The notes under the pieces: model-generated
The model's input: the letters and a program-made list of their open reading frames with translations, nothing else
What the model was told of the DNA's origin: nothing
Databases searched by the model: none
In this document: positions 5,075 to 35,036 of the stretch, one piece after another
Numbering within the stretch: position 1 is the first letter of the stretch
How the letters are laid out: each line of letters opens with the position of its first letter
Program-made: the position numbers and the translations under genes
DNA from: Mesorhizobium sp. M4B.F.Ca.ET.203.01.1.1
GTDB lineage: Bacteria > Pseudomonadota > Alphaproteobacteria > Rhizobiales > Rhizobiaceae
Direction: 5' to 3'
NCBI RefSeq assembly: GCF_004791025.1
Contig: NZ_SRUO01000001.1
Coordinates: 248,001 to 312,000 of the forward strand
Length of the DNA: 64,000 bases

Positions 5075-6870
5075 ATTTCGTCGTCATCCGCCGCCGGATC
5101 GACCGCCAGGTCGGCCTCGGCCTCTTCCACTTCCGGCACGTCCGGAATGCGCACATCGATGATCTTGGCGCCGGGGAAGCGGGCGAGGATGGCGGCGACC
5201 GTCGGGTCGCTCTTGGCATCAAGGAAGGCGATCTCGCGCTTCGTCGTTTCCATCTCCGCCAGCGTCTGCCCGCCATCTTCCTTCGACAGCGAGACCAGCC
5301 AGTTGCGGCCGGTCCAGGCACGCAACTTGGCGGTCAGGTCGTTGAGCAGCATCTTCGGCGCATCTTCGGTCAGGCTGACGTCGAGGCGGCCGGGCTCGAT
5401 GCGCACCAGCCGCACGCAGCGCTTGATCAACACCTTGAAGGCGATGTCGCGATTGGCATCGGCAAGGGCGGCAATGTCGGCCAAGGACTTCACCGGCACG
5501 GCAGGCGTTTCGACGACCGGTTCCGGCGCCGCGACAAAGGCCGCGGGCACGGGCTGCGCCTCGACCAGCCGCATCGTCTGCGCGCCGCCGCCGGCGGACG
5601 GCATGCGCGCCTGCGCCACAGCGCTGGCGCCGCCATTGCCGGGGCTTGCCGGCGCCCCGTTGGCGCGCGGCGCGCCATTCGGAACCGGCGAAGCGCCCTC
5701 CAGCGATTTCAGCGCCTCGTCCAGCGTCGGCAGGTCGGCGGCATGCGCGAGCCGGATCAGCACCATCTCGGCGGCGCTCACCGGCCGGTTCGAAGACTGC
5801 ACTTCGGGGATGCCCTTCAGCAGCATCTGCCATGTCCTGGACAGCACGCGCACCGACAGCGTCCCGGCGAAGTCGCCGCCGCGCCGGCGCTCATCCTCGG
5901 AGAGCGATGCATCGTCGGCAGCCGTCGGCACGAAGCGCAGCCTGGTGACGAGGTGGTTGAATTCGGCAAGGTCGGTGAGCAGCGCGGCCGGATCGGCGCC
6001 GGTGTCGTACTGGGCGCGGAATTCGGCCAGGGCCGCCGCGACGTCGCCCTTCATGACATGCTCGAACAGGTCGACGATGCGGGCGCGGTCGGCGAGGCCG
6101 AGCATGGCGCGCACGGCCTCGGTGCTGACCGTGCCGCTGCCATGGGCGATCGCCTGGTCGAGGATGGAGAGCGAATCGCGCGCCGAGCCTTCGGCGGCGC
6201 GCGCGATCATCGCCAGCGCGTCGTCGTCGACCGAAATGCCCTCCTTGGCGGCGATCGCCGACAGATGCGCGACCAGCGCGCCGGCATCGATGCGCCTCAG
6301 ATCAAAGCGCTGGCAGCGCGACAGGACCGTGATCGGCACCTTGCGGATCTCGGTGGTGGCGAAGATGAATTTGACGTGCGGCGGCGGCTCTTCCAGCGTC
6401 TTCAACAGGCCGTTGAAGGCCTGGGTGGAGAGCATGTGCACTTCGTCGATGATGTAGACCTTGTAGCGGGCCGAGACCGGCGCGTAGCGCACGCGCTCGA
6501 TGATGTCCCTGATGTCGTCGATGCCGGTGTGCGAGGCGGCGTCCATCTCGATGACGTCGACATGGCGGCCCTCCATGATCGCCTGGCAATGCTCGCCTGG
6601 GATCGAAAGATCGACCGAAGGCTGGTCGACGGTGGCGGTCTTGTAGTTCAGTGCCCTGGCCAGGATGCGCGCCGTGGTCGTCTTGCCGACACCGCGCACA
6701 CCGGTCAGCATCCAGGCCTGGGCGATGCGCCCGGAGGCGAAGGCGTTGGTCAGCGTGCGGACCATCGGCTCCTGGCCGATCAGCTCGGAGAAATTCGAGG
6801 GGCGGTATTTGCGGGCCAGAACCCGATAGGCGCCTGCCTTATCCGTCCCCAAGTTTCCGGCTTCGCTCAT
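5071..6870 (-). CDS. dnaX: DNA polymerase III subunit gamma/tau
   Basis: The clamp-loader ATPase subunit of the replicase, 599 residues. It opens with the conserved YRVLARKYRPSNFSELIGQE, then Walker A GVRGVGKTTTARI near residue 60. Next come the Walker B/DEXX region YIIDEVHMLS, sensor 1 FIFATTE and the Arg-finger SRC motif (VLSRCQRFDLRR). Domain III follows with a Pro/Ala-rich linker near residues 385-450, and a tau-type C-terminal domain ends the protein. No obvious slippery heptamer for gamma production was noticed. The stop codon is formed by the adjoining palindromic repeat. It is downstream of the SRP RNA and upstream of ybaB. Confidence 0.97.
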   Translation of the reverse strand: MSEAGNLGTDKAGAYRVLARKYRPSNFSELIGQEPMVRTLTNAFASGRIAQAWMLTGVRGVGKTTTARILARALNYKTATVDQPSVDLSIPGEHCQAIMEGRHVDVIEMDAASHTGIDDIRDIIERVRYAPVSARYKVYIIDEVHMLSTQAFNGLLKTLEEPPPHVKFIFATTEIRKVPITVLSRCQRFDLRRIDAGALVAHLSAIAAKEGISVDDDALAMIARAAEGSARDSLSILDQAIAHGSGTVSTEAVRAMLGLADRARIVDLFEHVMKGDVAAALAEFRAQYDTGADPAALLTDLAEFNHLVTRLRFVPTAADDASLSEDERRRGGDFAGTLSVRVLSRTWQMLLKGIPEVQSSNRPVSAAEMVLIRLAHAADLPTLDEALKSLEGASPVPNGAPRANGAPASPGNGGASAVAQARMPSAGGGAQTMRLVEAQPVPAAFVAAPEPVVETPAVPVKSLADIAALADANRDIAFKVLIKRCVRLVRIEPGRLDVSLTEDAPKMLLNDLTAKLRAWTGRNWLVSLSKEDGGQTLAEMETTKREIAFLDAKSDPTVAAILARFPGAKIIDVRIPDVPEVEEAEADLAVDPAADDDEI

Positions 6871-25111: not shown

Positions 25112-26299
25112 CTACTGCGCGATCGAGACGCGGACCTCGTAGATATCGACCGACTTGCCCTGCTTGTCGAAGTCGGAGTTGATGGCAATGGTGCCGGCCG
25201 CGCCCGGCTGCTTGTCCGGGAACTGCACGTCGAACAGATATTCGTTGCGCTCGTGACCGACGGCATAGCGCTTGCGGCCGCAATCGCCGAGCTCGCCGAA
25301 ATTGCAGTCGACCGAGATCTGCGTCTCCTTGCCCTCTTCCGAGCGGGCGACGATGTCGAACATGGCATGCTTGCCGACGAGCTTTTCCAGCACGCCCTGG
25401 CCGACGTCGAAGGCGATGGCCGAACCGGAAGCGCCGGAGCGGATGCGCAGGAACGAGCCGGTGTCGTCCTGCATCACCTCGGCCTTGGCGTCGGCGGGCG
25501 CCGCGACATGGGTCGGGTCGGCCGGTGAGAAGACACTGATCCAGTCGCGCTGCTGCGCGGCCTCGCCCTGTTTTTCCGGCGACCCGGCAGGCGGCTCGGC
25601 CGCCTCGTCGTCCTCGACCGTCGGCGGCGCCTGGGGCGGGCCGGTGTCGAGTTCGGCCGCGGTCTTGAAGACGCCGGTCTGCTTGGCGAAATAGAGCCCG
25701 ATGCCGGCGGCGGCCAGCAGCGTCACGCCGAGGAAGATTGCCGTCAGCGGCAGGCGACGTCCCCTGATCCGCCGCTCGTCGCGATCCGGCGCCACCTCCG
25801 CCTCGCCGTCTTCCGCCGCGGCGGATGCCGGCGAATCGAGCGTCGGCGCATCGGGAAGGTCGCCGGGCATGATGTCGGGGACGACTGGCAGCACGCGCGA
25901 GCGTGGCGCATCGGAAGCTGAAGGCTGAACCGGGCCATCGACCACGATCGCCGGCGACGGCTGAGCGGGCGCGGCTTGCGTCGGCGGTTCCACTGTGGGC
26001 GCCGGCGCGGCGGTCTCGGCCGACACGGCGATTTCAGGGGCAACCGCCGCCGCCGTGTCACTGTCGTCCAGCGCGGCGACATCGGGGACCGCCGGCAGGA
26101 ACTCCGATTCGATCTCGGCGATCTTGGCCTGCACCGCCTTGCGGCGCTTGATGGCCATTTCCACGGTCACGTTCGGATTGGCCTGCAGCACGCGGTCGAG
26201 CGCGGCAAAGGCCGAGCGATAGACCCGCTCGCGAAAGACGCGGTCCTCGGCATTGCCCTTCTCGAAGGCGTTGCGGATCGCTTTTTCGATCGCGTCCAA
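25112..26299 (-). CDS. Uncharacterised single-span membrane protein
   Basis: A 395-residue protein with no recognised family. An N-terminal helical region (EKAIRNAFEKGNAEDRVFRERVYRSAFAALDRVL) leads into a Pro/Ala-rich acidic stretch (residues 70-175). A basic patch RIRGRR precedes one membrane helix near 183-205 (AIFLGVTLLAAAGIGLYFA). A periplasmic domain of about 155 residues follows, with two Cys in VDCNFGELGDCGRKRYAVG and a beta-rich end (EYLFDVQFPDKQP). The start is TTG at 26299, supported by a GAGGG site seven bases before it. Convergent with the DNA ligase gene. Confidence 0.75.
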   Translation of the reverse strand: MDAIEKAIRNAFEKGNAEDRVFRERVYRSAFAALDRVLQANPNVTVEMAIKRRKAVQAKIAEIESEFLPAVPDVAALDDSDTAAAVAPEIAVSAETAAPAPTVEPPTQAAPAQPSPAIVVDGPVQPSASDAPRSRVLPVVPDIMPGDLPDAPTLDSPASAAAEDGEAEVAPDRDERRIRGRRLPLTAIFLGVTLLAAAGIGLYFAKQTGVFKTAAELDTGPPQAPPTVEDDEAAEPPAGSPEKQGEAAQQRDWISVFSPADPTHVAAPADAKAEVMQDDTGSFLRIRSGASGSAIAFDVGQGVLEKLVGKHAMFDIVARSEEGKETQISVDCNFGELGDCGRKRYAVGHERNEYLFDVQFPDKQPGAAGTIAINSDFDKQGKSVDIYEVRVSIAQ

Positions 26300-26653
26300 G
26301 CCAAATCCCTCTGCACATTCCTGCCATGATCGTTAGCGGCAGGCGGCCAATCAATCAACGGGCCGGCGGCCGCATTCTGCGCGGCGCAACCGGACAAACC
26401 GGATTTCGGCGGTTTTTTTCAAGGAAATCAATCTATTTCGCCGAGGCGGTCTCGCACCAGCCGCCAAGCGCCGTGCTTCGGACCGGCGTCGCATTGCTCC
26501 TGCGGCTGCTTTGAGGCAAGCCCGGAGCCGGCGCGAATTGCCAGTTCCGGCCCGAATTCGCGGTTGCTTATTTGAATTCGCCGCAAGCCATCTTGAATTC
26601 GCGGCGGGTTGAGTCTATCACGCAGCCCATCTTGGAGGCCTAGCGCTTCCCGG
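26300..26653. other. Intergenic region with a 20-21 bp periodic GAATTCG motif upstream of tRNA-Thr
   Basis: No gene is evident. GAATTCG occurs at 26554, 26574 and 26595, with a related GAATTG at 26535, so the copies are spaced about two helical turns apart. Bases 26635-26653, directly before the tRNA, reappear at 29873-29891 before the broken tRNA copy. Confidence 0.6.
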
Positions 26654-26729
26654 GCCGCTTTAGCTCAGTTGGTAGAGCACATCATTCGTAATGATGGGGT
26701 CGCGTGTTCGAGTCACGCAAGCGGCACCA
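26654..26729 (+). tRNA. tRNA-Thr (anticodon CGT)
   Basis: A complete 76-nt cloverleaf. The acceptor GCCGCTT pairs with AAGCGGC; the D arm has AGCTCAGTTGGTAGAGC; the anticodon stem CATCA/TGATG carries the loop TTCGTAA with anticodon CGT. The T arm GCGTG-TTCGAGT-CACGC is perfect, and CCA is encoded at 26727-26729. A degraded second copy lies at 29892-29956. Confidence 0.97.
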
Positions 26730-27087
26730 GTTCCTCTGCTGAAATGCTTTATTTCCAAGAGGATACACAGGAGCGCGGTGGCATTCCAACCAACCGAAAA
26801 TCCGCCTCGGATGACTTCGTTGGCAGGTCGGGTCGTGTCTCCATTTTGAAATCTGGCCGTTGTCTCGCCAGCTTTCCCAGCCATCCGGTGCAGACGCTGC
26901 TGAGGTTTGAGCGATCTCTGGCGACGATGGCCGATACAAAAGCACCGCCACGGTGGCGTCAGCCGGTTACACAGAGCGGGAAATATCTCCGGCCTTCTGG
27001 GCGTGGTGCGTCAGCGTCCCAGGGATAGGCAAGGTCAAGCTGCGTTCCGCATCGGCGAAGGGCGGAGGACTGGGAGAGATGGGAACC
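26730..27087 (+). other. Region between tRNA-Thr and the adenylate cyclase gene
   Basis: No convincing gene. The cyclase frame is open upstream to a GTG at 26953, but that part shows no family similarity. The region probably belongs to the integrated segment that starts at the tRNA 3' end. Confidence 0.5.
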
Positions 27088-28911
27088 ATGCGCGCGGCGC
27101 GTCTGGAAGTCGGCAGGACATGGACGGGAGGCGGTCCGCGTGCGGACGCCTGGCCGACGGGTGCAACGACCACGCAGCGTCACCTCGCGGCGATCCTAGC
27201 TTGCGACGTGGTCGGCTATTCGCGCCTGACGGAACGCGATGAGCGAGGCACGCTCGAACGGCTGAAAATCTACCGCAAGGATCTCCTCGAACCACTGGTC
27301 TCCGAGCACCGGGGTCGGATCGTCAAGCGCACCGGCGACGGCATGCTGTGCGAGTTCGCCAGCGTCGTCAACGCAGTGAACGCGGCGATCGCGATCCAGC
27401 AGGCCGTGGCGGACCGCGAGGCGGAGACGGCCGAGGACGAGCGGATTCACTTGCGCATCGGCGTCAATCTCGGCGACGTGGTCTGCGAGGAGGACGGCGA
27501 CCTCTACGGCGACGGGGTCAACATCGCCGCCCGCCTCGAAGGCATCGCCGATCCCGGCACCGTGGTCGTCTCGGGTACCGCCTACGACCACCTTCAGGGC
27601 AAGCTCGACTGCGGCTTCACGCCGCTCGGCGAGCTGCGTCTGAAGAACATCGAGCGGCCCGTGCGCGCCTACCGCGTCGAGACTGACGCCAGCGCCGCGG
27701 TGGCTGCACCGCCTCCCTTGCCCGAGAGACCCTCGATCGCAGTCCTGCCTTTCACCAACATGAGCGGCGACCCCGACCAGGAATACTTCGCCGACGGGCT
27801 GGTCGAGGACATCATCACCGGATTGAGCCGGGTGAATTCCTTCTTCGTGATCGCCCGCAATTCGTCCTTCACCTACAAGGGCCGGGCGGTGGACCTGCGC
27901 CAGGTCGGGCGCGAGCTGGGCGTCCGCTACGTGCTCGAGGGCAGCATCCGCAGAGCAGGATCGCGGGTGCGCATCAGTGGGCAGTTGGTGGACGCGATCA
28001 GCGGACACCATATCTGGACCGACCGTTTCGAGGGCGACCTGAGCGACATCTTCGACCTGCAGGACAAGGTGACCGAGAGCGTCGTCGGCGCTGTCGAGCC
28101 GAGCATCCGGCTGGAGGAGATCAAGCAGGCGCGCATGAAGCCGACCGACTACATAAGCGCCTACGACCTCTACCTTCGCGCGCTGCCGCGCTTCTACAGC
28201 ATGACGCGCGAAGGCTTTGCCGACGTGCGCCGGCTCACCAACGAGGCGCTCAGCATCGACCCCGGCTTCAACCTGGCGAAAGGACTCGGCGCCTATATCC
28301 GCAGCCTGTCCGTGAGCCAGTGCTGGCATGAGCCGGACGATACCCGCGTCGCCGCGCGCATGGCGCGCGAGGTGCTGGCGGAAGCGCGCGACGACCCCAC
28401 GAGCCTGCGCTTCGCCGCGCAGGTGATCGCCTACAGCGCGAAAGAATACGAGATGGCGCTGCGCACGATCGAACGATCCCTGCTGCTCAACCCCAATTCG
28501 GCGCAGGGCCATACGGGTTGCGGCTGGGTGAACGCGCATTCCAGCCGCCCGCTCGTCGCGATCGAGCACTTTCACAGGGCGATGCGGCTGAGCCCGGTCG
28601 ATCCCGAGAAGGGCATCGCGCTCTCCGGCATCGGCATGAGCTACCTGATGCTCGAGCGCTACGAGGAAGCGCTGGCATGGGGAGAACGCGCGCTGCACGA
28701 GATGCCGAACTACGGCTCGTCGCACCGGGTGGTTATCATGGCGCTGGTCAAACTGAACCGGCTTCACGAGGCGCAGGCGGCGGCGCGGCGGCTGATGGAG
28801 GCTTTCCCGACATACACGCTCACCCGGCAGAGGCAGATCAACCCGTGGCTGGACAAGGTGTTCGCCGAGCGTTACGTCGAGGCGCTGAGCATCGCCGGCG
28901 TGCCGGAGTGA
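27088..28911 (+). CDS. Adenylate/guanylate cyclase with TolB-like and TPR domains
   Basis: A 607-residue class III nucleotide cyclase of the type multiplied in rhizobia. The start at 27088 is chosen because GGGAGAG lies nine bases before it; ATG 27079 is an alternative. The cyclase domain has the first metal Asp in AAILACDVVGYSRL, the second in VKRTGDGMLCEF, and the GVNIAARLEG motif with the transition-state Asn and Arg, so it should be active. A FlgO/TolB-like stretch follows (IAVLPFTNMSGDPDQEYFADGL, YVLEGSIRRAG, GHHIWTDRFEG). The C-terminal 200 residues are helical TPR-like repeats. No membrane span is visible. It lies within the tRNA-linked accessory patch. Confidence 0.9.
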   Translation: MRAARLEVGRTWTGGGPRADAWPTGATTTQRHLAAILACDVVGYSRLTERDERGTLERLKIYRKDLLEPLVSEHRGRIVKRTGDGMLCEFASVVNAVNAAIAIQQAVADREAETAEDERIHLRIGVNLGDVVCEEDGDLYGDGVNIAARLEGIADPGTVVVSGTAYDHLQGKLDCGFTPLGELRLKNIERPVRAYRVETDASAAVAAPPPLPERPSIAVLPFTNMSGDPDQEYFADGLVEDIITGLSRVNSFFVIARNSSFTYKGRAVDLRQVGRELGVRYVLEGSIRRAGSRVRISGQLVDAISGHHIWTDRFEGDLSDIFDLQDKVTESVVGAVEPSIRLEEIKQARMKPTDYISAYDLYLRALPRFYSMTREGFADVRRLTNEALSIDPGFNLAKGLGAYIRSLSVSQCWHEPDDTRVAARMAREVLAEARDDPTSLRFAAQVIAYSAKEYEMALRTIERSLLLNPNSAQGHTGCGWVNAHSSRPLVAIEHFHRAMRLSPVDPEKGIALSGIGMSYLMLERYEEALAWGERALHEMPNYGSSHRVVIMALVKLNRLHEAQAAARRLMEAFPTYTLTRQRQINPWLDKVFAERYVEALSIAGVPE

Positions 28912-28955
28912 TCGTCGCGGCTGCAAGGATGCGCTCTCCCGCGCGTCACGCCGCC

Positions 28956-29024
28956 AAGTCAGACAGCGTGCCGCAGGTCCGGGTCCTTGTCGAAAAGGTC
29001 TCGGGACGCGAGGCAAATGCATAG
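28956..29024 (+). pseudogene. 3' fragment of a pyridoxamine-phosphate-oxidase-like gene
   Basis: In-frame translation KSDSVPQVRVLVEKVSGREANA followed by TAG closely matches the C-terminus of the intact gene at 29279-29725 (LSDSLPHVFFRILVEQVSGREATE). Only the last 22 or so codons remain, about 50 bp after the cyclase stop. It indicates that a second copy of the downstream gene once lay here. Confidence 0.7.
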
Positions 29025-29278
29025 GCTGTGTGGATCGCCGGCCCGAGCGATCCAGCTTTTCGCGCCTAACCCTGCGATCATCACCGAAGCGGCAGTCGAA
29101 ACGCCCGCGCGGTTTCCAACGCGGGCGCTGCCGATCGGTGCGGTTTGGCACGGCATTCGCCCCATAACGAATTTGATCCATAGCAGTGAGCGAGGACGTA
29201 TCCTGCGCTAATATCGGCAAGAACCGATCGGCAGAAATTCGCGAGGCCGAAGCCGGCTGAAAAAGGGAGGTCACACAG

Positions 29279-29725
29279 ATGATGATCCGCACGCTCTCCA
29301 CCCTGGAATGCACGAAAATGCTGGCGGCCAACCGCACCGGACATTTGGCTTGCGCGAAGGACGGACAACCCTATGTCGTGCCTTTCAACTACGCCTATGC
29401 CGACAGCCACCTCTATGCCTTCTCGCTGTTGGGCAAGAAGGTCGACTGGATGCGGGAGAATCCCCTGGTGTGCGCCCAGGTGCAGGAACACACGCAGGGG
29501 CGCGGCTGGAAAAGCGTGATCGTCGAGGGCCGCTATGAGGAACTGCCGGACCGGATCGGCCACAAGGTTCAACGCGACCGTGCCTGGGCAGTGCTGAGCA
29601 AGCACGCGGGCTGGTGGGAGCCCGGCGCGCTCAAGCCTGTCACGCCTCCTCTTTCAGATAGCCTGCCGCATGTCTTTTTCCGGATCCTCGTCGAGCAGGT
29701 CTCGGGACGGGAGGCAACTGAATAG
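29279..29725 (+). CDS. Pyridoxamine 5'-phosphate oxidase family (FMN-binding split barrel) protein
   Basis: A 148-residue flavin-binding split-barrel protein, starting behind a GGGAGG site. The domain opens with LSTLECTKMLAANRTGHLACAKDGQPYVVPFNYAYAD and continues with YAFSLLGKKVDWMRENPLVCAQVQE and WKSVIVEGRYEELPD. This layout is that of small stress-linked PPOX-family proteins rather than the biosynthetic enzyme PdxH. Cofactor and substrate are unknown. A fragment of a second copy lies upstream at 28956-29024, and remnants of integration lie directly downstream. Confidence 0.87.
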   Translation: MMIRTLSTLECTKMLAANRTGHLACAKDGQPYVVPFNYAYADSHLYAFSLLGKKVDWMRENPLVCAQVQEHTQGRGWKSVIVEGRYEELPDRIGHKVQRDRAWAVLSKHAGWWEPGALKPVTPPLSDSLPHVFFRILVEQVSGREATE

Positions 29726-29762
29726 CCAGCGTCCACGGCAGCAACCGGAGCATCTCCGGAGC

Positions 29763-29874
29763 CTATCCGCCCAGCGTCGCCACCGTCTTCAGCGCGCCAT
29801 CCAGCATGTCGCCCTTCTCGTCCTTCAGCGCCGCCTCGCGCAGGCGGCGGATCCAGTCGGCGGCATCGCCGCGA
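29763..29874 (-). pseudogene. Displaced 3' fragment of an iorB-type gene
   Basis: About 112 bp match the 3' end of the intact oxidoreductase gene at 31322-31430 in the same orientation, including the stop codon. The encoded end is ALKTVATLGG versus ALKTVATLG in the intact gene. Several silent differences show it is not a fresh copy. At its inner end the match stops abruptly and joins the sequence that precedes the tRNA-Thr. Confidence 0.85.
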
Positions 29875-29891
29875 GGCCTAGCGCTTCCCGG

Positions 29892-29956
29892 GCCGCTTCA
29901 GCTAAGTTGGTAGGACATCATGGGGGTCGCGTGTTCGAGTCACGCAAGCGGCACCA
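29892..29956 (+). pseudogene. Degenerate tRNA-Thr copy lacking the anticodon arm
   Basis: The acceptor strands GCCGCTT and AAGCGGC, the T arm and the encoded CCA are identical to the tRNA-Thr at 26654. About 11 bases of the anticodon stem-loop are missing and the D arm has changes (AGCTAAGTTGG). It cannot fold as a functional tRNA. The 19 bases before it are also shared with the intact locus. Confidence 0.9.
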
Positions 29957-30244
29957 GTTTCCCCTCCAATCGAAATTGTACCACCGCGGCGCGTCAAGCC
30001 GTATTTGGCGACGTCAATGTTGTGAAGTCTTGGCCCGCTCACAGCGGTCAATGCCAGAATCCATCAGACCGCATGTCGACTACAAATCTTCATCTTCGCA
30101 AACATCCGTTGGCATATTAGTATCGAATATTAGATTACTCTAATTTAGCTGCATATACTTCAAGTTACTAGTTTCAAACAACTACAACTTCTGCGTTCAA
30201 TGTTAATTATTGTCTTTCATAGTGACATCCATATGGAGTCACAC
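29957..30244 (+). other. AT-rich region upstream of the PAP2 gene
   Basis: No gene seen. From about 30100 the base composition falls well below that of the neighbourhood, with runs such as CGAATATTAGATTACTC. This fits foreign DNA and probably contains the promoter of the PAP2 gene. Confidence 0.5.
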
Positions 30245-31204
30245 ATGAGCGACATCTCGGCATCAAGGTACATTCTGAGCGGATTGACGGCTTTTTCCTA
30301 TGTCGTCGTCTATTCACTCGCGTCAGCACTCGGCCTGAAAGTCGAAAACGTTCTGGGCGTCCCTGAAGCTCTTTTGCTCGTTGCGGCCATCGTGGCGAGT
30401 GCCAGCCTTCTGAACAGGGCACCTCTGTTCAGGGCCGCACTGGAAAATTTTCTTTACGGGACGCTGCTCGTTTTCCCGATCACAATCGCGGTCTATCTCG
30501 CCGCACGCTCGAACGTGCCTTGGGCCGACGAAGAGCTGCGGCAGATGGATCAGGCGCTGGGCATCAACTGGCCAGCCTTGATCGCTTTCGTGGACAGCCG
30601 AAAAAATCTCTCATTCGTCCTGAACATCGCCTACAGAAGCTTCCATTTCCAGCTCCTGATTCTGCCCTTTATGTTGGCATCGACCGGGCATGTCCTGCGG
30701 TCGTATCAGATGACAATTGCGTATGCCGTCATCTGCTTCGTTTCCTGCGTCATTTCTATCTGGTACCCAGCGCTAGGCACCTACAGTGTCTACCATATGG
30801 ACCCCAGCAATCTAAAATACATCGACGGAAAGCTGGCGACCGTCTTCCTTGATGAACTGATTGGGATCCATTCAAATTCCAACTTTGTTTTCGATTTTGG
30901 GCGAGCCGAAGGGATCATGACTTTCCCTTCCGTCCACGCCGCCATTGCGGCCCTCTGTGCATGGGCCGCGTGGGATGCGAAATGGCTCCGCTACCCCATG
31001 CTCCTCCTGAACATACTGATGCCAGCTTCCGCCGCCATCGTATCGAACCACTACGTGGTGGACGTCATCGCCGGCATAGGGGTCGCCGGGTTTTGTATTT
31101 CAGCGGTGTCGTTCGTTACCCGACCGAGGCGTTCGGCAATTGGCTCGCGCCCGCAAGGCCTCAACGCTCTACCCGTTCCGTCAATCTCCGACATATCTGC
31201 GTGA
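30245..31204 (+). CDS. PAP2 superfamily membrane phosphatase
   Basis: A 319-residue multi-span membrane protein of the PAP2 phosphatase group. Start at 30245 (MSDISASRYIL) is chosen because GGAG lies six bases upstream. At least six hydrophobic helices are visible. Catalytic motifs are FPSVHAAIAAL (PSxH with the active His) and SNHYVVDVIAG (final His and Asp). The spacing resembles the inositol-phosphoceramide-synthase-like PAP2 branch. Codon use is less GC-biased than in its neighbours, a sign of transfer. The last 25 residues (after VTRPRRSAIG) may be read into unrelated sequence that belongs to an antisense remnant. Confidence 0.87.
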   Translation: MSDISASRYILSGLTAFSYVVVYSLASALGLKVENVLGVPEALLLVAAIVASASLLNRAPLFRAALENFLYGTLLVFPITIAVYLAARSNVPWADEELRQMDQALGINWPALIAFVDSRKNLSFVLNIAYRSFHFQLLILPFMLASTGHVLRSYQMTIAYAVICFVSCVISIWYPALGTYSVYHMDPSNLKYIDGKLATVFLDELIGIHSNSNFVFDFGRAEGIMTFPSVHAAIAALCAWAAWDAKWLRYPMLLLNILMPASAAIVSNHYVVDVIAGIGVAGFCISAVSFVTRPRRSAIGSRPQGLNALPVPSISDISA

Positions 31205-31295
31205 TCTCGGCCCCGGCCATCTCCCAAAGTGCCAAGAACCGTTCCTTGGAACCCGCATTGCCGTCTTGGCGAGCCGCAATCCACGATTTCCAAAG
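31161..31295 (-). pseudogene. Possible truncated gene 3' end, antisense to the PAP2 terminus
   Basis: Minus-strand translation gives a credible helical protein end, KSWIAARQDGNAGSKERFLA followed by LWEMAGAEITQICRRLTERVER and a stop. The upstream part of that frame runs into the iorB gene as noise. It may be the remnant of a gene truncated when the accessory patch formed. The family is not recognised. Confidence 0.35.
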
Positions 31296-31321
31296 GCGCG
31301 GCTGCAGCCTTGCTGTCCCCC

Positions 31322-32890
31322 CTATCCCAGCGTCGCGACCGTCTTCAGCGCGCCATCCAGCATGTCGCCCTTCTCGTCCTTCAGCGCGGCTTCGCGCAGG
31401 CGGCGGATCCAGTCGGCGGCATCGTCGCGGCCCTTCAGCATATCGAGCGCTGAGAGCACGCGGTCGAATTTCGACTGCGCGCGGGCGTGGGTGTCGCTGT
31501 AGCCCTTGATCAGCCGGCGGCAGTTCAGGATTTCCGTGCCAAGCGCGTAATCTTCGCGGGCGTGGGCGAGCGCCAGTTCGTACCAGCGTTCCAGATGCTC
31601 GACCTCGACTTTGTGGCGCAGCAGGCTGCGGCGCCAGCGGCGCAGGCCGCCAATGACCCACAGCATGGCGAAGCCGGTGAAACTGTCGGTGCGGATGTGG
31701 CGGCCGCGATTGATGCGGCGGTCGAGGAAAGCGGCAAGCTTCGGCCTGTCCTCGATATAGCTGCCCAGCCCGGCTGGCAGCGTACCGCAGAATTCCTCGA
31801 TGCGCGGATGGAAGTACTCGGTCACCTGCAAGACCGTTCCGTCCTTGACGCCGACCTCCTTGCGCACGCGCCTGTCGCGGGTTGAACGGGTCTTCAGATC
31901 GGCGACGCGGATCATGTCGTCGTAGCACATGGCGTTGGCGAGATGTTTCGCCGCGGATATCGACAGCGCGTAGGCGTGTTCCGGGCCATCCAGCGCGACG
32001 GCCTTGTCCAGCCGGTCGAGATATTCGCCGCCATAGGCGATGTCCTGGTAGTCGACGACCTTTTTCAGGCCGCGTTCGGCCATGTCGCGCACCGGCTCTG
32101 GCAAGGCACCCACGCGGGCGGCCAGCTCCTGCCAGCCCTTCAGCAAGATTTCCGGTCCACGGACCTTCGCCATTGACTTGGCTTCGGTGACGGCATGTTT
32201 CGCCGCCTGCTCGCCTGCCGGTGCAGCCGCGATGCCGCGCGCGCGATCGTAAGCGGCGGCGAAGGCGGCGAGGCTGGCCTTGACGCCGCGGCCGCCGGCG
32301 CCGATCGCCTGCTCATAGTTCTCGCGCGCAAAGGGCAGCGCATCGGAACCGGCCAGCGCGCCGAGCAGGCTTGCCGAAATCATGGTGCCGTTCTCGGCGG
32401 CGATCTTTTCCATGTCGAAGGCGATGAATCGCCTGGCCGCGGCTTGCGCCGTCGCGTGCACCTTCTCCGACGAGGCGCGGCCGTCGCCCGGCTCGATCTT
32501 TTCCGACACCGCGGCAATGCGATGCGAGGAGGCGATCAGCGTCGTGCGCTCGGGCGTCACGAATCCCCTGATGATGGCGCGGCCGGCTTCCATCAGCTCG
32601 GCGGCGATCAATATGTCGACGTCGCCCTGCGAGGGCGACAGCGCGAAGACCGGCAGCCGGCCGGTGTCGCGGGCCATCTCGATGTAATAGATCGTAGCAC
32701 CCGTGCGCTGGGCGACGCCTGCCACCGAGGTCGACTGGGCGATGTAGCCACTGCGCTCGGCGACATCGGTGATCCAGTCGGCGAGCACGCCGCCGCCCTG
32801 GCCGCCGACGGCGAGCACGGCGAGCTTTATCACCCGCTCGTCGTCAGAGGCGCCCGCCTTCGGGCGCAGCGCTGCGTTGTGATCAAGCAT
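31322..32890 (-). CDS. Indolepyruvate ferredoxin oxidoreductase beta-type subunit with DUF6537-like C-terminus
   Basis: Partner of the upstream alpha-type subunit in oxidative decarboxylation of indolepyruvate or another arylpyruvate to its acyl-CoA. The 522-residue protein opens with the gamma/KorC-like domain (LAVLAVGGQGGGVLADWITDVAERSGY, then STSVAGVAQRTGATIYYIEM). About 320 helical residues of the extension usual in proteobacterial IorB-type proteins follow. Start at 32890 (MLDHNAAL) overlaps the alpha-subunit stop by eight bases, so translation is coupled. The last 37 codons are duplicated at 29763-29874. Confidence 0.88.
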   Translation of the reverse strand: MLDHNAALRPKAGASDDERVIKLAVLAVGGQGGGVLADWITDVAERSGYIAQSTSVAGVAQRTGATIYYIEMARDTGRLPVFALSPSQGDVDILIAAELMEAGRAIIRGFVTPERTTLIASSHRIAAVSEKIEPGDGRASSEKVHATAQAAARRFIAFDMEKIAAENGTMISASLLGALAGSDALPFARENYEQAIGAGGRGVKASLAAFAAAYDRARGIAAAPAGEQAAKHAVTEAKSMAKVRGPEILLKGWQELAARVGALPEPVRDMAERGLKKVVDYQDIAYGGEYLDRLDKAVALDGPEHAYALSISAAKHLANAMCYDDMIRVADLKTRSTRDRRVRKEVGVKDGTVLQVTEYFHPRIEEFCGTLPAGLGSYIEDRPKLAAFLDRRINRGRHIRTDSFTGFAMLWVIGGLRRWRRSLLRHKVEVEHLERWYELALAHAREDYALGTEILNCRRLIKGYSDTHARAQSKFDRVLSALDMLKGRDDAADWIRRLREAALKDEKGDMLDGALKTVATLG

Positions 32891-35036
32891 CGGCAAACAC
32901 CAGCCGGCGGCTTTCACGGCGGCGCTGCAGACGCCCGATCACCGCACGCCGCGCGCTTTCGAGGAAACGGTCCCAGCGGCCGGGATTGTGGACGACATCG
33001 GCGCGGTAGAAGGACGGGCAGAGCACGGCGGCGTCCGCCACCTCGCCGCAATTGCCGCAGCCGACGCAATTCTGGTCGATCGATGCCACCGGATCGTCGC
33101 GCAGCGGGTCGTCGAGCGATTTGACTGACAGCGAGGGGCAGCCCGAGAGCCGCATGCAGGCGTGGTCGCCGGTGCAGATGTCCTCGTCGACGCCGAACTT
33201 CGGCTTGACGATGCGCTCGCCGCCCTTGATCGCCTTGTCGACCAGCGGCTTCTCGCGGCGCTGGCGGTTCAGCATGCATTCGGACGACGCAACGATGACT
33301 TTCGGCCCCTTCTCCTCGGTCGTCAGCGCCTCCCGCAGCGTCGCCTGCATCTTGCCGACATCGTAGGTGCGGTCGATATGGCGCAGCCATTTGACGCCCA
33401 TGCCCTTCACCGCCTCGGTGATCGGATGTTTTGTGGATTTGGTGCGGTTCGAGGCGCGCGAGGACAGGATGTCTTGGCCGCCGGTGGCGGCCGAGTAGAA
33501 ATTGTCGACGATGACGATGACGCCGTCGTTCTTGTTGAACACCGCATTGCCGATCGAGGAGGTCAGGCCGTTGTGCCAGAAGCCGCCGTCGCCGACGAAG
33601 GAGATCGAGCGGCGTTTTGCTTCAGGCGAATTGAACGCCGAAGCCGAGGCCGGCCCCAGCCCGTAACCCATGGTGGTGGCGCCAAGCTCGAAGGGCGGCA
33701 TGATCGAGAACAGATGGCAGCCGATGTCGGAGGCGATGTGGTGCTTGCCGAGTTCCTGCTCGACCAGCCTGGTCGCGGCGAAGATCGGCCGTTCCGGGCA
33801 GCCGATGCAGAAGCCAGGCGGGCGACCGGGAACGACATTAATCAGGTCGGTCGTATCGACGCCTTCGCCCGATTTGTTCGGCGCCCTCACCTCGCCCGGC
33901 AACAGATGCGGAGCGTTCGCGCGCAGGAAGGAGCCGATGCCGTCGAGCATGACCTGGCCGGTATATTCGCCGGCCATCGGCAAATGCTCCTTGCCGACCA
34001 GCCTGGTGCCGCGGCCGGCCTTGTGCAGCATGGCGGCAAAAGCCTGTTCGATGTAGTTGGGCTGGCCTTCCTCGACGACCAGCACCGCTTGCTTGCCCTC
34101 GCAGAAAGCGAGGAACTCGTCGTCGACAAGCGGATAGACGGCGTTCAGCACATAGAGCGACACGTCGGTGTCGCCATAGGTGTCGGCGAGGCCGAGCCGC
34201 TGCAGCGCGCGGATGACCGAATTGTACATGCCGCCCTGCATGACGATGCCGACGGAGCCATGATCGGAGCCGAAGATCTCGTTGATCTTGCGGCTCCTGA
34301 TGAAATCGACCGCCGCCGGCCAGCGCTTCGCCACCTTCTCCTTCTCATGCAGGAAGGAGGCGGGCGGCAGCACGATGCGGCCGGTGTCGCGGCGCGGCGC
34401 TTCCAGCGCATCGGCCACCGACATTGGCGGCCGCTTGTTGTCCTTGGCAACAAAATGGCCGTGGACGTGGCAGCAGCGGATGCGCACCTGCAGCATGACC
34501 GGCGTGTTGGAGGCTTCCGACAGCTCGAAGCCGTCCTCGACCGCCTTGACGATCGAGGGCAGGTTCGGGCGCGGGTCGAGCAGCCAGACCTGGCTCTTCA
34601 TGGCGAAGGCGTGGCTGCGCTCCTGCATAATGGAGGAGCCCTCGCCATAGTCCTCGCCGACGATGATCAGCGCGCCGCCGGTGACGCCGCCGGACGCCAG
34701 ATTGGCCAGCGCATCGGAAGCGACATTGGTGCCGACCGTCGACTTGAAGGTGGCGGCACCGCGGATCGGGTAGTGCACGGAGGCCGCAAGCATGGCGGTG
34801 GCGGTGGCTTCCGAGGCACTCGCCTCGAAATGCACGCCGAGTTCTCCGAGAATGTCCTGCGCGTCGGCGAGCACGTCCATCAAATGGCTGATCGGCGCAC
34901 CCTGGTAGCCGCCGACATAGCCGACGCCGCATTGCAGCAGCGCCTTGGTGATGGCGAGAATGCCCTCGCCGGCAAACTCCTGGCCGGCGCCGAGGCGGAG
35001 CTTCTCGACTTCCTTGGCAAAAGACCGTTCGGCCAT
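32883..35036 (-). CDS. iorA: Indolepyruvate ferredoxin oxidoreductase alpha-type subunit
   Basis: The ThDP- and iron-sulphur-binding subunit, 717 residues, behind a perfect AAGGAGG site. The N-terminal pyrimidine-binding domain holds ATAMLAASVHYPIRGAATFKS. The ThDP site is seen in FVGDGGFWHNGLTSSIGNAVFNKNDG and DNFYSAATGGQD. A C-terminal ferredoxin-like domain has CTGDHACMRLSGCP and CVGCGNCGEVADAAVLCP. In the first cluster the usual second Cys is Asp. It converts an arylpyruvate, ferredoxin and CoA to aryl-acetyl-CoA. It lies in a five-gene minus-strand unit behind a MarR gene. Confidence 0.92.
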   Translation of the reverse strand: MAERSFAKEVEKLRLGAGQEFAGEGILAITKALLQCGVGYVGGYQGAPISHLMDVLADAQDILGELGVHFEASASEATATAMLAASVHYPIRGAATFKSTVGTNVASDALANLASGGVTGGALIIVGEDYGEGSSIMQERSHAFAMKSQVWLLDPRPNLPSIVKAVEDGFELSEASNTPVMLQVRIRCCHVHGHFVAKDNKRPPMSVADALEAPRRDTGRIVLPPASFLHEKEKVAKRWPAAVDFIRSRKINEIFGSDHGSVGIVMQGGMYNSVIRALQRLGLADTYGDTDVSLYVLNAVYPLVDDEFLAFCEGKQAVLVVEEGQPNYIEQAFAAMLHKAGRGTRLVGKEHLPMAGEYTGQVMLDGIGSFLRANAPHLLPGEVRAPNKSGEGVDTTDLINVVPGRPPGFCIGCPERPIFAATRLVEQELGKHHIASDIGCHLFSIMPPFELGATTMGYGLGPASASAFNSPEAKRRSISFVGDGGFWHNGLTSSIGNAVFNKNDGVIVIVDNFYSAATGGQDILSSRASNRTKSTKHPITEAVKGMGVKWLRHIDRTYDVGKMQATLREALTTEEKGPKVIVASSECMLNRQRREKPLVDKAIKGGERIVKPKFGVDEDICTGDHACMRLSGCPSLSVKSLDDPLRDDPVASIDQNCVGCGNCGEVADAAVLCPSFYRADVVHNPGRWDRFLESARRAVIGRLQRRRESRRLVFADA

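Follow-up and report, generated by a model that had tools for sequence, protein, structure and literature searches.

Two versions of a tRNA-Thr hotspot interval stacked head to tail in a Mesorhizobium genome

Integrative elements and cis-mobilizable elements (CIMEs) accumulate by tandem accretion, in which stacking proceeds via attachment (att) sites and an integrase. Homology-facilitated illegitimate recombination was reportedly described in naturally transformed Acinetobacter, and is said to go back to work of de Vries and Wackernagel in 2002. Here we analyzed a window of 64,000 nt (positions 248,001 to 312,000 of contig NZ_SRUO01000001.1) from Mesorhizobium sp. M4B.F.Ca.ET.203.01.1.1 (genome G000; relatives are numbered likewise), in which an intact tRNA-Thr(CGT) gene and a broken copy of it (tRNA') bracket a segment of ~3.1 kb. 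We conclude with high confidence that two different versions of one interval, extending from the tRNA gene to the 3' end of the gene IORb, are stacked head to tail in this genome. The arrangement resembled CIME accretion in that elements were stacked at a common chromosomal site, but its borders were chromosomal gene ends. A homologous anchor combined with a non-homologous join, as in homology-facilitated illegitimate recombination, would yield the outcome seen in G000, although the join in G000 had minimal microhomology. In Mesorhizobium, the 40,024-bp element IMEMsp.M2A.F.02-2 adjoins a tRNA-Thr gene (PMC8627217). As with that element, strain-variable accessory DNA was found beside a tRNA-Thr gene in G000, but no integrase was seen, and the whole tRNA was repeated together with its leader and the IORb end rather than a 3' att core. 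Large tandem duplications reported to copy a tRNA gene (PMC7661048) and those of pneumococcal patAB (PMC4432121) share with G000 the head-to-tail seam and a tRNA copy or promoter change, but the tandem units of G000 had no common inner genes. No publication on the tRNA-IORb seam or on the cyclase unit described below was found in searches of open-access papers.

Analysis by blastn (26000-33000 against the window) showed that 26635-26732 was repeated at 29873-29959 with 84.7% identity over 98 columns (E 1.4e-25), a match far beyond chance. The repeat comprised a leader of 19 nt (GAGGCCTAGCGCTTCCCGG), identical before both copies, followed by the full tRNA and 3 nt. The broken copy measured 65 nt against 76 nt, the net deficit of 11 nt lying in the region of the anticodon arm; it could not be folded into a tRNA with an anticodon arm, and neither ARAGORN nor Rfam made a call at 29892-29956. 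The intact gene was the sole tRNA called by ARAGORN in the window and the sole match of RF00005 within 26500-31400, even at E ≤ 1. It was also the only full-identity match of the gene in the genome, and an exact-match scan of a contig collection (genome_contigs) with the 98-bp tRNA stretch gave no match. Boxes resembling a promoter, TTGAAT (26593) and TATCAC (26616), were recognized by eye upstream of the intact gene, outside the repeat; a sigma-70 scan of 26300-31400 found nothing at the tRNA and returned one promoter-like site, with shuffled sequences averaging 1.0. These results confirmed the first-pass annotation of the window, which had described an intact and a broken tRNA-Thr copy with their upstream bases, the second without most of its anticodon arm, around a segment with a cyclase gene and a PPOX-like gene and no integrase left. 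Both genes were identified by their Pfam domains, and no integrase family was matched by any of six open reading frames scanned in and around the segment, two of which lay inside it.

The sequence in front of the second leader had no place in that earlier account. Region 29770-29873 matched 31326-31429, the 3' end of IORb, with 96% identity over 104 columns (E 1.7e-43, blastn), and this copy (IORb') abutted the leader of tRNA' directly, with the seam between 29872 and 29873. The gene order was thus tRNA-cyclase-PPOX-IORb' (version 1), joined at the seam to tRNA'-PAP2-IORb (version 2). The seam was searched in 146 genomes of the genus, G000 included, with five candidates per genome scored in full. 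The full 191-bp seam was matched in one genome, G000 itself; nine others had a match to the query at E ≤ 1e-40, in the IORb part only. The features are listed in Table 1.

Table 1. Positions of the features in the window and of the recombinase matches in relatives.
Feature	Position	Strand	Remark
HYP, conserved gene, no Pfam hit at E ≤ 0.001	25112-26299	-	Resident left border
tRNA-Thr leader, 19 nt, copy 1	26635-26653	+	Identical to copy 2 leader
Intact tRNA-Thr(CGT), 76 nt	26654-26729	+	ARAGORN, Rfam RF00005
Cyclase unit	26926-28950	+	Conserved flanks around cyclase gene
Adenylate/guanylate cyclase + TPR gene	26953-28911	+	PF00211 + TPR
PPOX-like 3' end remnant	28931-29024	+	74% to 29625-29725
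PPOX-like gene (Pyridox_ox_2)	29279-29725	+	PF12900
IORb', copy of last ~103 bp of IORb	29770-29872	-	Right border of version 1
Second 19-nt leader, fused to IORb'	29873-29891	+	
Broken tRNA-Thr copy (tRNA'), 65 nt	29892-29956	+	Anticodon arm lost
PAP2_3 superfamily gene, version 2	30200-31204	+	Colinear with G147
IORb (POR + DUF6537, oxidoreductase-like)	31322-32917	-	Resident right border of hotspot
Tyrosine recombinase match, G008	C9:80541-80969		Opposite strand to tRNA
Tyrosine recombinase match, G014	C444:32492-32971		Opposite strand to tRNA
Tyrosine recombinase match, G095	C19:160531-160950		Opposite strand to tRNA
Tyrosine recombinase match, G099	C22:337261-337773		Opposite strand to tRNA

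Comparison with relatives showed that the interval from tRNA-Thr(CGT) to the IORb 3' end is a gene-content hotspot in Mesorhizobium. The DNA downstream of the tRNA was examined in 76 relatives; among 20 of these, many were picked for second tRNA matches, so that counts of border fragments are enriched and do not give a random rate. The IORb end lay inside the retrieved stretch in 43 relatives and was not found in the other 33, where the stretch stopped less than 6 kb from the tRNA in 5 and covered at least 12 kb in 28. The shortest interval measured 122 bp (G122) and the longest about 16 kb (G169, measured from the first tRNA copy; the value of 1203 for this genome is measured from the second). 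G122 represented an empty site, with the tRNA, 122 bp and IORb, and thereby supplied the empty-site comparison proposed in the first-pass annotation. In G147, the interval held PAP2 only and was colinear with the second half of the G000 arrangement (window 29873-31218, 78% over 1376 columns). Judged by HYP, these two were also the nearest of the 76 relatives (G122, 95% at the amino acid level; G147, 93%; the next, 83%). Of the 43 fully covered relatives, 14 had a PPOX gene in the interval, adjoining IORb as in version 1 in 13 of them, and 6 had a cyclase gene there. The two occurred together, in the order tRNA-cyclase-PPOX-IORb, in three (G098, G120, and G162). Version 1 is of a kind found in other species groups, and version 2 of the kind found in G147.

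Extra pieces of the IORb end were found inside the interval in 7 of the 76 relatives (G011, G071, G079, G081, G091, G128, and G161), and near-full-length second tRNA-Thr copies were found ~14.9 kb (G169) and ~1.9 kb (G086) 3' of the first. Border copies thus recur at this hotspot. Upstream of the second tRNA copy, G169 and G086 had one and the same gene end as well as part of the leader, including a -10-like box. In G091, a 3' fragment of tRNA-Thr, 37 bp, and a truncated IORb end followed one another at ~6064-6330 of locus L175 (tRNA-forward orientation), which looks like the relic of an empty-type site displaced through later insertions.

The arrangement in G000 is probably best explained by import of version 1 via the tRNA combined with a non-homologous join, followed by decay of the resident tRNA; for the exact recombination route our confidence is moderate. 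The version 1 DNA would have come from another Mesorhizobium, and the ~98 bp of near-identical leader and tRNA would have served for its recombination with the resident chromosome. The opposite end of the imported DNA, which lay inside IORb, would have been attached non-homologously to the leader, at a point 19 nt upstream of the resident tRNA. The imported tRNA would thereby have captured the resident promoter, and the resident tRNA, displaced 3.2 kb downstream without a promoter, would have decayed. No integrase would be required for the import step, though integrases use tRNA-Thr in relatives. The same seam would also arise in a variant of this scenario, if the interval had been duplicated in tandem and the content of one copy had later been replaced. 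Import of version 1 into a version 2 chromosome fits the match of the left flank and two trees. In the left flank, 26541-26720 was 94-100% identical to G122, and identity dropped to 55% over 26721-26780; the match to G122 and G147 crossed the leader and the tRNA and ended right after them, compatible with an anchor there. Over 26299-26640, identity was 85% to G122 and 81% to G147, with 69% for the next best full-length match. In the tree of IORb+IORa (32 genomes), G000 grouped with G122 (100/99), and G147 joined this pair (100/99). In the tree of PPOX-IORb' (15 genomes), G000 grouped with G015 (94/94), within a clade holding G152, G131, G034, G023, and G162 (96/96).

Several observations weighed against import in this form. 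Exact version 1 was present in no sampled genome, and ~7 kb of extra DNA lay between the cyclase and PPOX genes in G098, G120, and G162. The left flank was uneven against G122 (77% over 26421-26480 and 55% over 26481-26540), support in the PPOX tree was moderate, and the G000 cyclase did not group in its tree with the other copies at tRNA-Thr. The ratio of PPOX to IORb distances to G000 averaged 1.01 (range 0.73-1.29; other pairs, 1.07), so that PPOX distances were proportional to IORb distances and no recent donor was seen. The 103 bp of IORb' matched G152 (100) and the resident IORb (99) almost equally and were too short to be placed. PAP2 of G147 was 77% identical against 93% for IORb; since it was more diverged than its neighbours, version 2 may have a separate history. 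The microhomology at the seam amounted to about 1 base in common, after later divergence, and a diverged seam in other genomes could have escaped the search.

The first-pass annotation had taken the tRNA repeats for att scars, that is, an integrase-carrying element would have entered the 3' end of tRNA-Thr, leaving the repeats as attL and attR, and would later have lost its integrase. Integrases do target this hotspot. Nine relatives, chosen for second tRNA copies or fragments, were checked for PF00589, and among the matches listed at least four of them (G008, G014, G095, and G099) had one 0.8-1.0 kb inward of the distal tRNA 3' fragment; a degenerate integrase was also found near the tRNA in G015. 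In G019, G079, and G162, the cyclase lay between the tRNA and a 3' fragment of it, as expected from such integration. Insertion at a tRNA hotspot stood up, given the empty site and the integrase islands seen at the same tRNA with five or six candidates per genome scored in full, but the window's repeat differs in shape from those of the islands. In the four islands, the duplication covers only 49-56 nt, from tRNA position 23-31 to the 3' end of the tRNA, whereas in G000 the 5' half and the 19-nt leader were repeated as well, with the copy of the IORb end in front. In G000, the repeat was not confined to the 3' part, and the two reading frames scanned inside the segment matched no integrase. 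Furthermore, G098 and G120 held cyclase and PPOX in the interval, where neither a second copy nor a fragment of the tRNA was detected at E ≤ 1e-3, an observation that the annotation itself had named as one that would speak against its reading. The repeats look like a recombination seam, not an integrase scar, and site-specific integration, already disfavoured, is quite unlikely.

If a single ancestral interval had been duplicated in tandem in this lineage, with cyclase and PPOX later lost from one copy and PAP2 from the other, this would account for the form of the seam, which joined the right end of a unit (the IORb end) to the left end (the tRNA leader) exactly as a tandem-duplication junction does; the second tRNA copies of G086 and G169, which are nearly complete and include part of the leader, also speak for it. 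However, the two intervals had no DNA in common at E ≤ 1e-3 except the borders. Self-comparison of 26000-33000 by blastn at this threshold detected, beyond the borders, only the pair formed by the PPOX 3' remnant, wholly within the first interval. The DNA 3' of the two tRNA copies also differed, with separate matches, in G008 for copy 1 and in G147 for copy 2. With G122 empty and G147 carrying PAP2 only, an ancestor with all the genes would need several parallel losses, and we regard such a duplication as unlikely. A highly improbable alternative is a misassembly in which a mixed culture or a repeat caused two versions of the chromosome to be joined: the genome is a draft of 327 contigs, but the seam lay inside a 727-kb contig of this 6.9-Mb assembly, the difference was 15% between the tRNA copies and 4% between IORb' and IORb, and the genome was scored as 100% complete with 0.07% contamination.

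The finding is real, but for the most part it represents ordinary genome plasticity. It offers a clean case in which a direct repeat of a tRNA, commonly taken as an att scar, resembles a recombination seam where two versions of a hotspot meet, and it provides a transferable test: is the 5' leader repeated, and is the opposite border gene copied beside the repeat? It also illustrates how a single-copy tRNA gene can be replaced in place, with a dead copy remaining.

Within version 1, the PPOX-like remnant sits between the cyclase gene and the intact PPOX gene, which points to either a deletion or an earlier PPOX copy at the join that follows the cyclase. The cyclase itself had orthologues (~89% amino acid identity or more) in at least 57 of the 146 genomes, where it formed a one-gene unit of ~2.4 kb; the unit of G000 was shorter or diverged at both ends. 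Of these 57 loci, 48 were compared and fell by common flanks into 16 groups, six of them associated with tRNA genes (Thr, Ser, Leu, Arg twice, and Lys) as judged with an incomplete tRNA library of 31 kinds. The groups comprised 10 loci at tRNA-Thr, six at tRNA-Ser (with a full tRNA gene beside G002 and G099), two at tRNA-Leu (G063 and G008), one at tRNA-Arg (G028), a further two forming a group in which G088 showed an Arg 3' fragment, and twelve forming a group in which G122 and G147 showed Lys fragments on both sides. By rough arithmetic from 49 genome-wide tRNA matches in 6.9 Mb, the association was above chance. The cyclases of G162 (Thr) and G063 (Leu) were about 1% apart at different tRNAs, and in the tree G162 nested with G063 and G008 (100/100), with the bootstrap not fully settled. 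No recombinase was matched in ten cyclase neighbours at five other sites (Pfam E ≤ 1e-5); three of these ten neighbours matched no family. In a search around the cyclase, direct repeats reached E < 1e-7 only in G000, G019, G079, G162, and G100 among the 48 loci, with a weaker one in G121 (8e-4), and control pairs gave E < 1e-3 in 5 of 143. With so few loci and these controls, a general att rule for the unit was not supported. Matches of 75-80% to one 81-nt tRNA-Ala-like ARAGORN call beside the cyclase were set aside as probably spurious.

Tentatively, and with considerable doubt, the cyclase may be a mobile unit of ~2.4 kb with fairly sharp ends and no recombinase of its own, preferring tRNA genes (Thr, Lys, Arg, Ser, and Leu) and presumably moved in trans by the integrases of others. 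If so, the unit and the stacking of borders would together form an integrase-light route for the growth of tRNA hotspots and the origin of tRNA pseudogenes. The wandering unit is a lead on the spread of signalling genes among rhizobia; no open-access paper combining adenylate cyclase, Mesorhizobium, mobility and a tRNA gene was found. At one site where no tRNA was found, the cyclase unit of G100 lay between direct repeats of 170 bp (91%), at 2453-2622 and 5379-5548 of locus L133.

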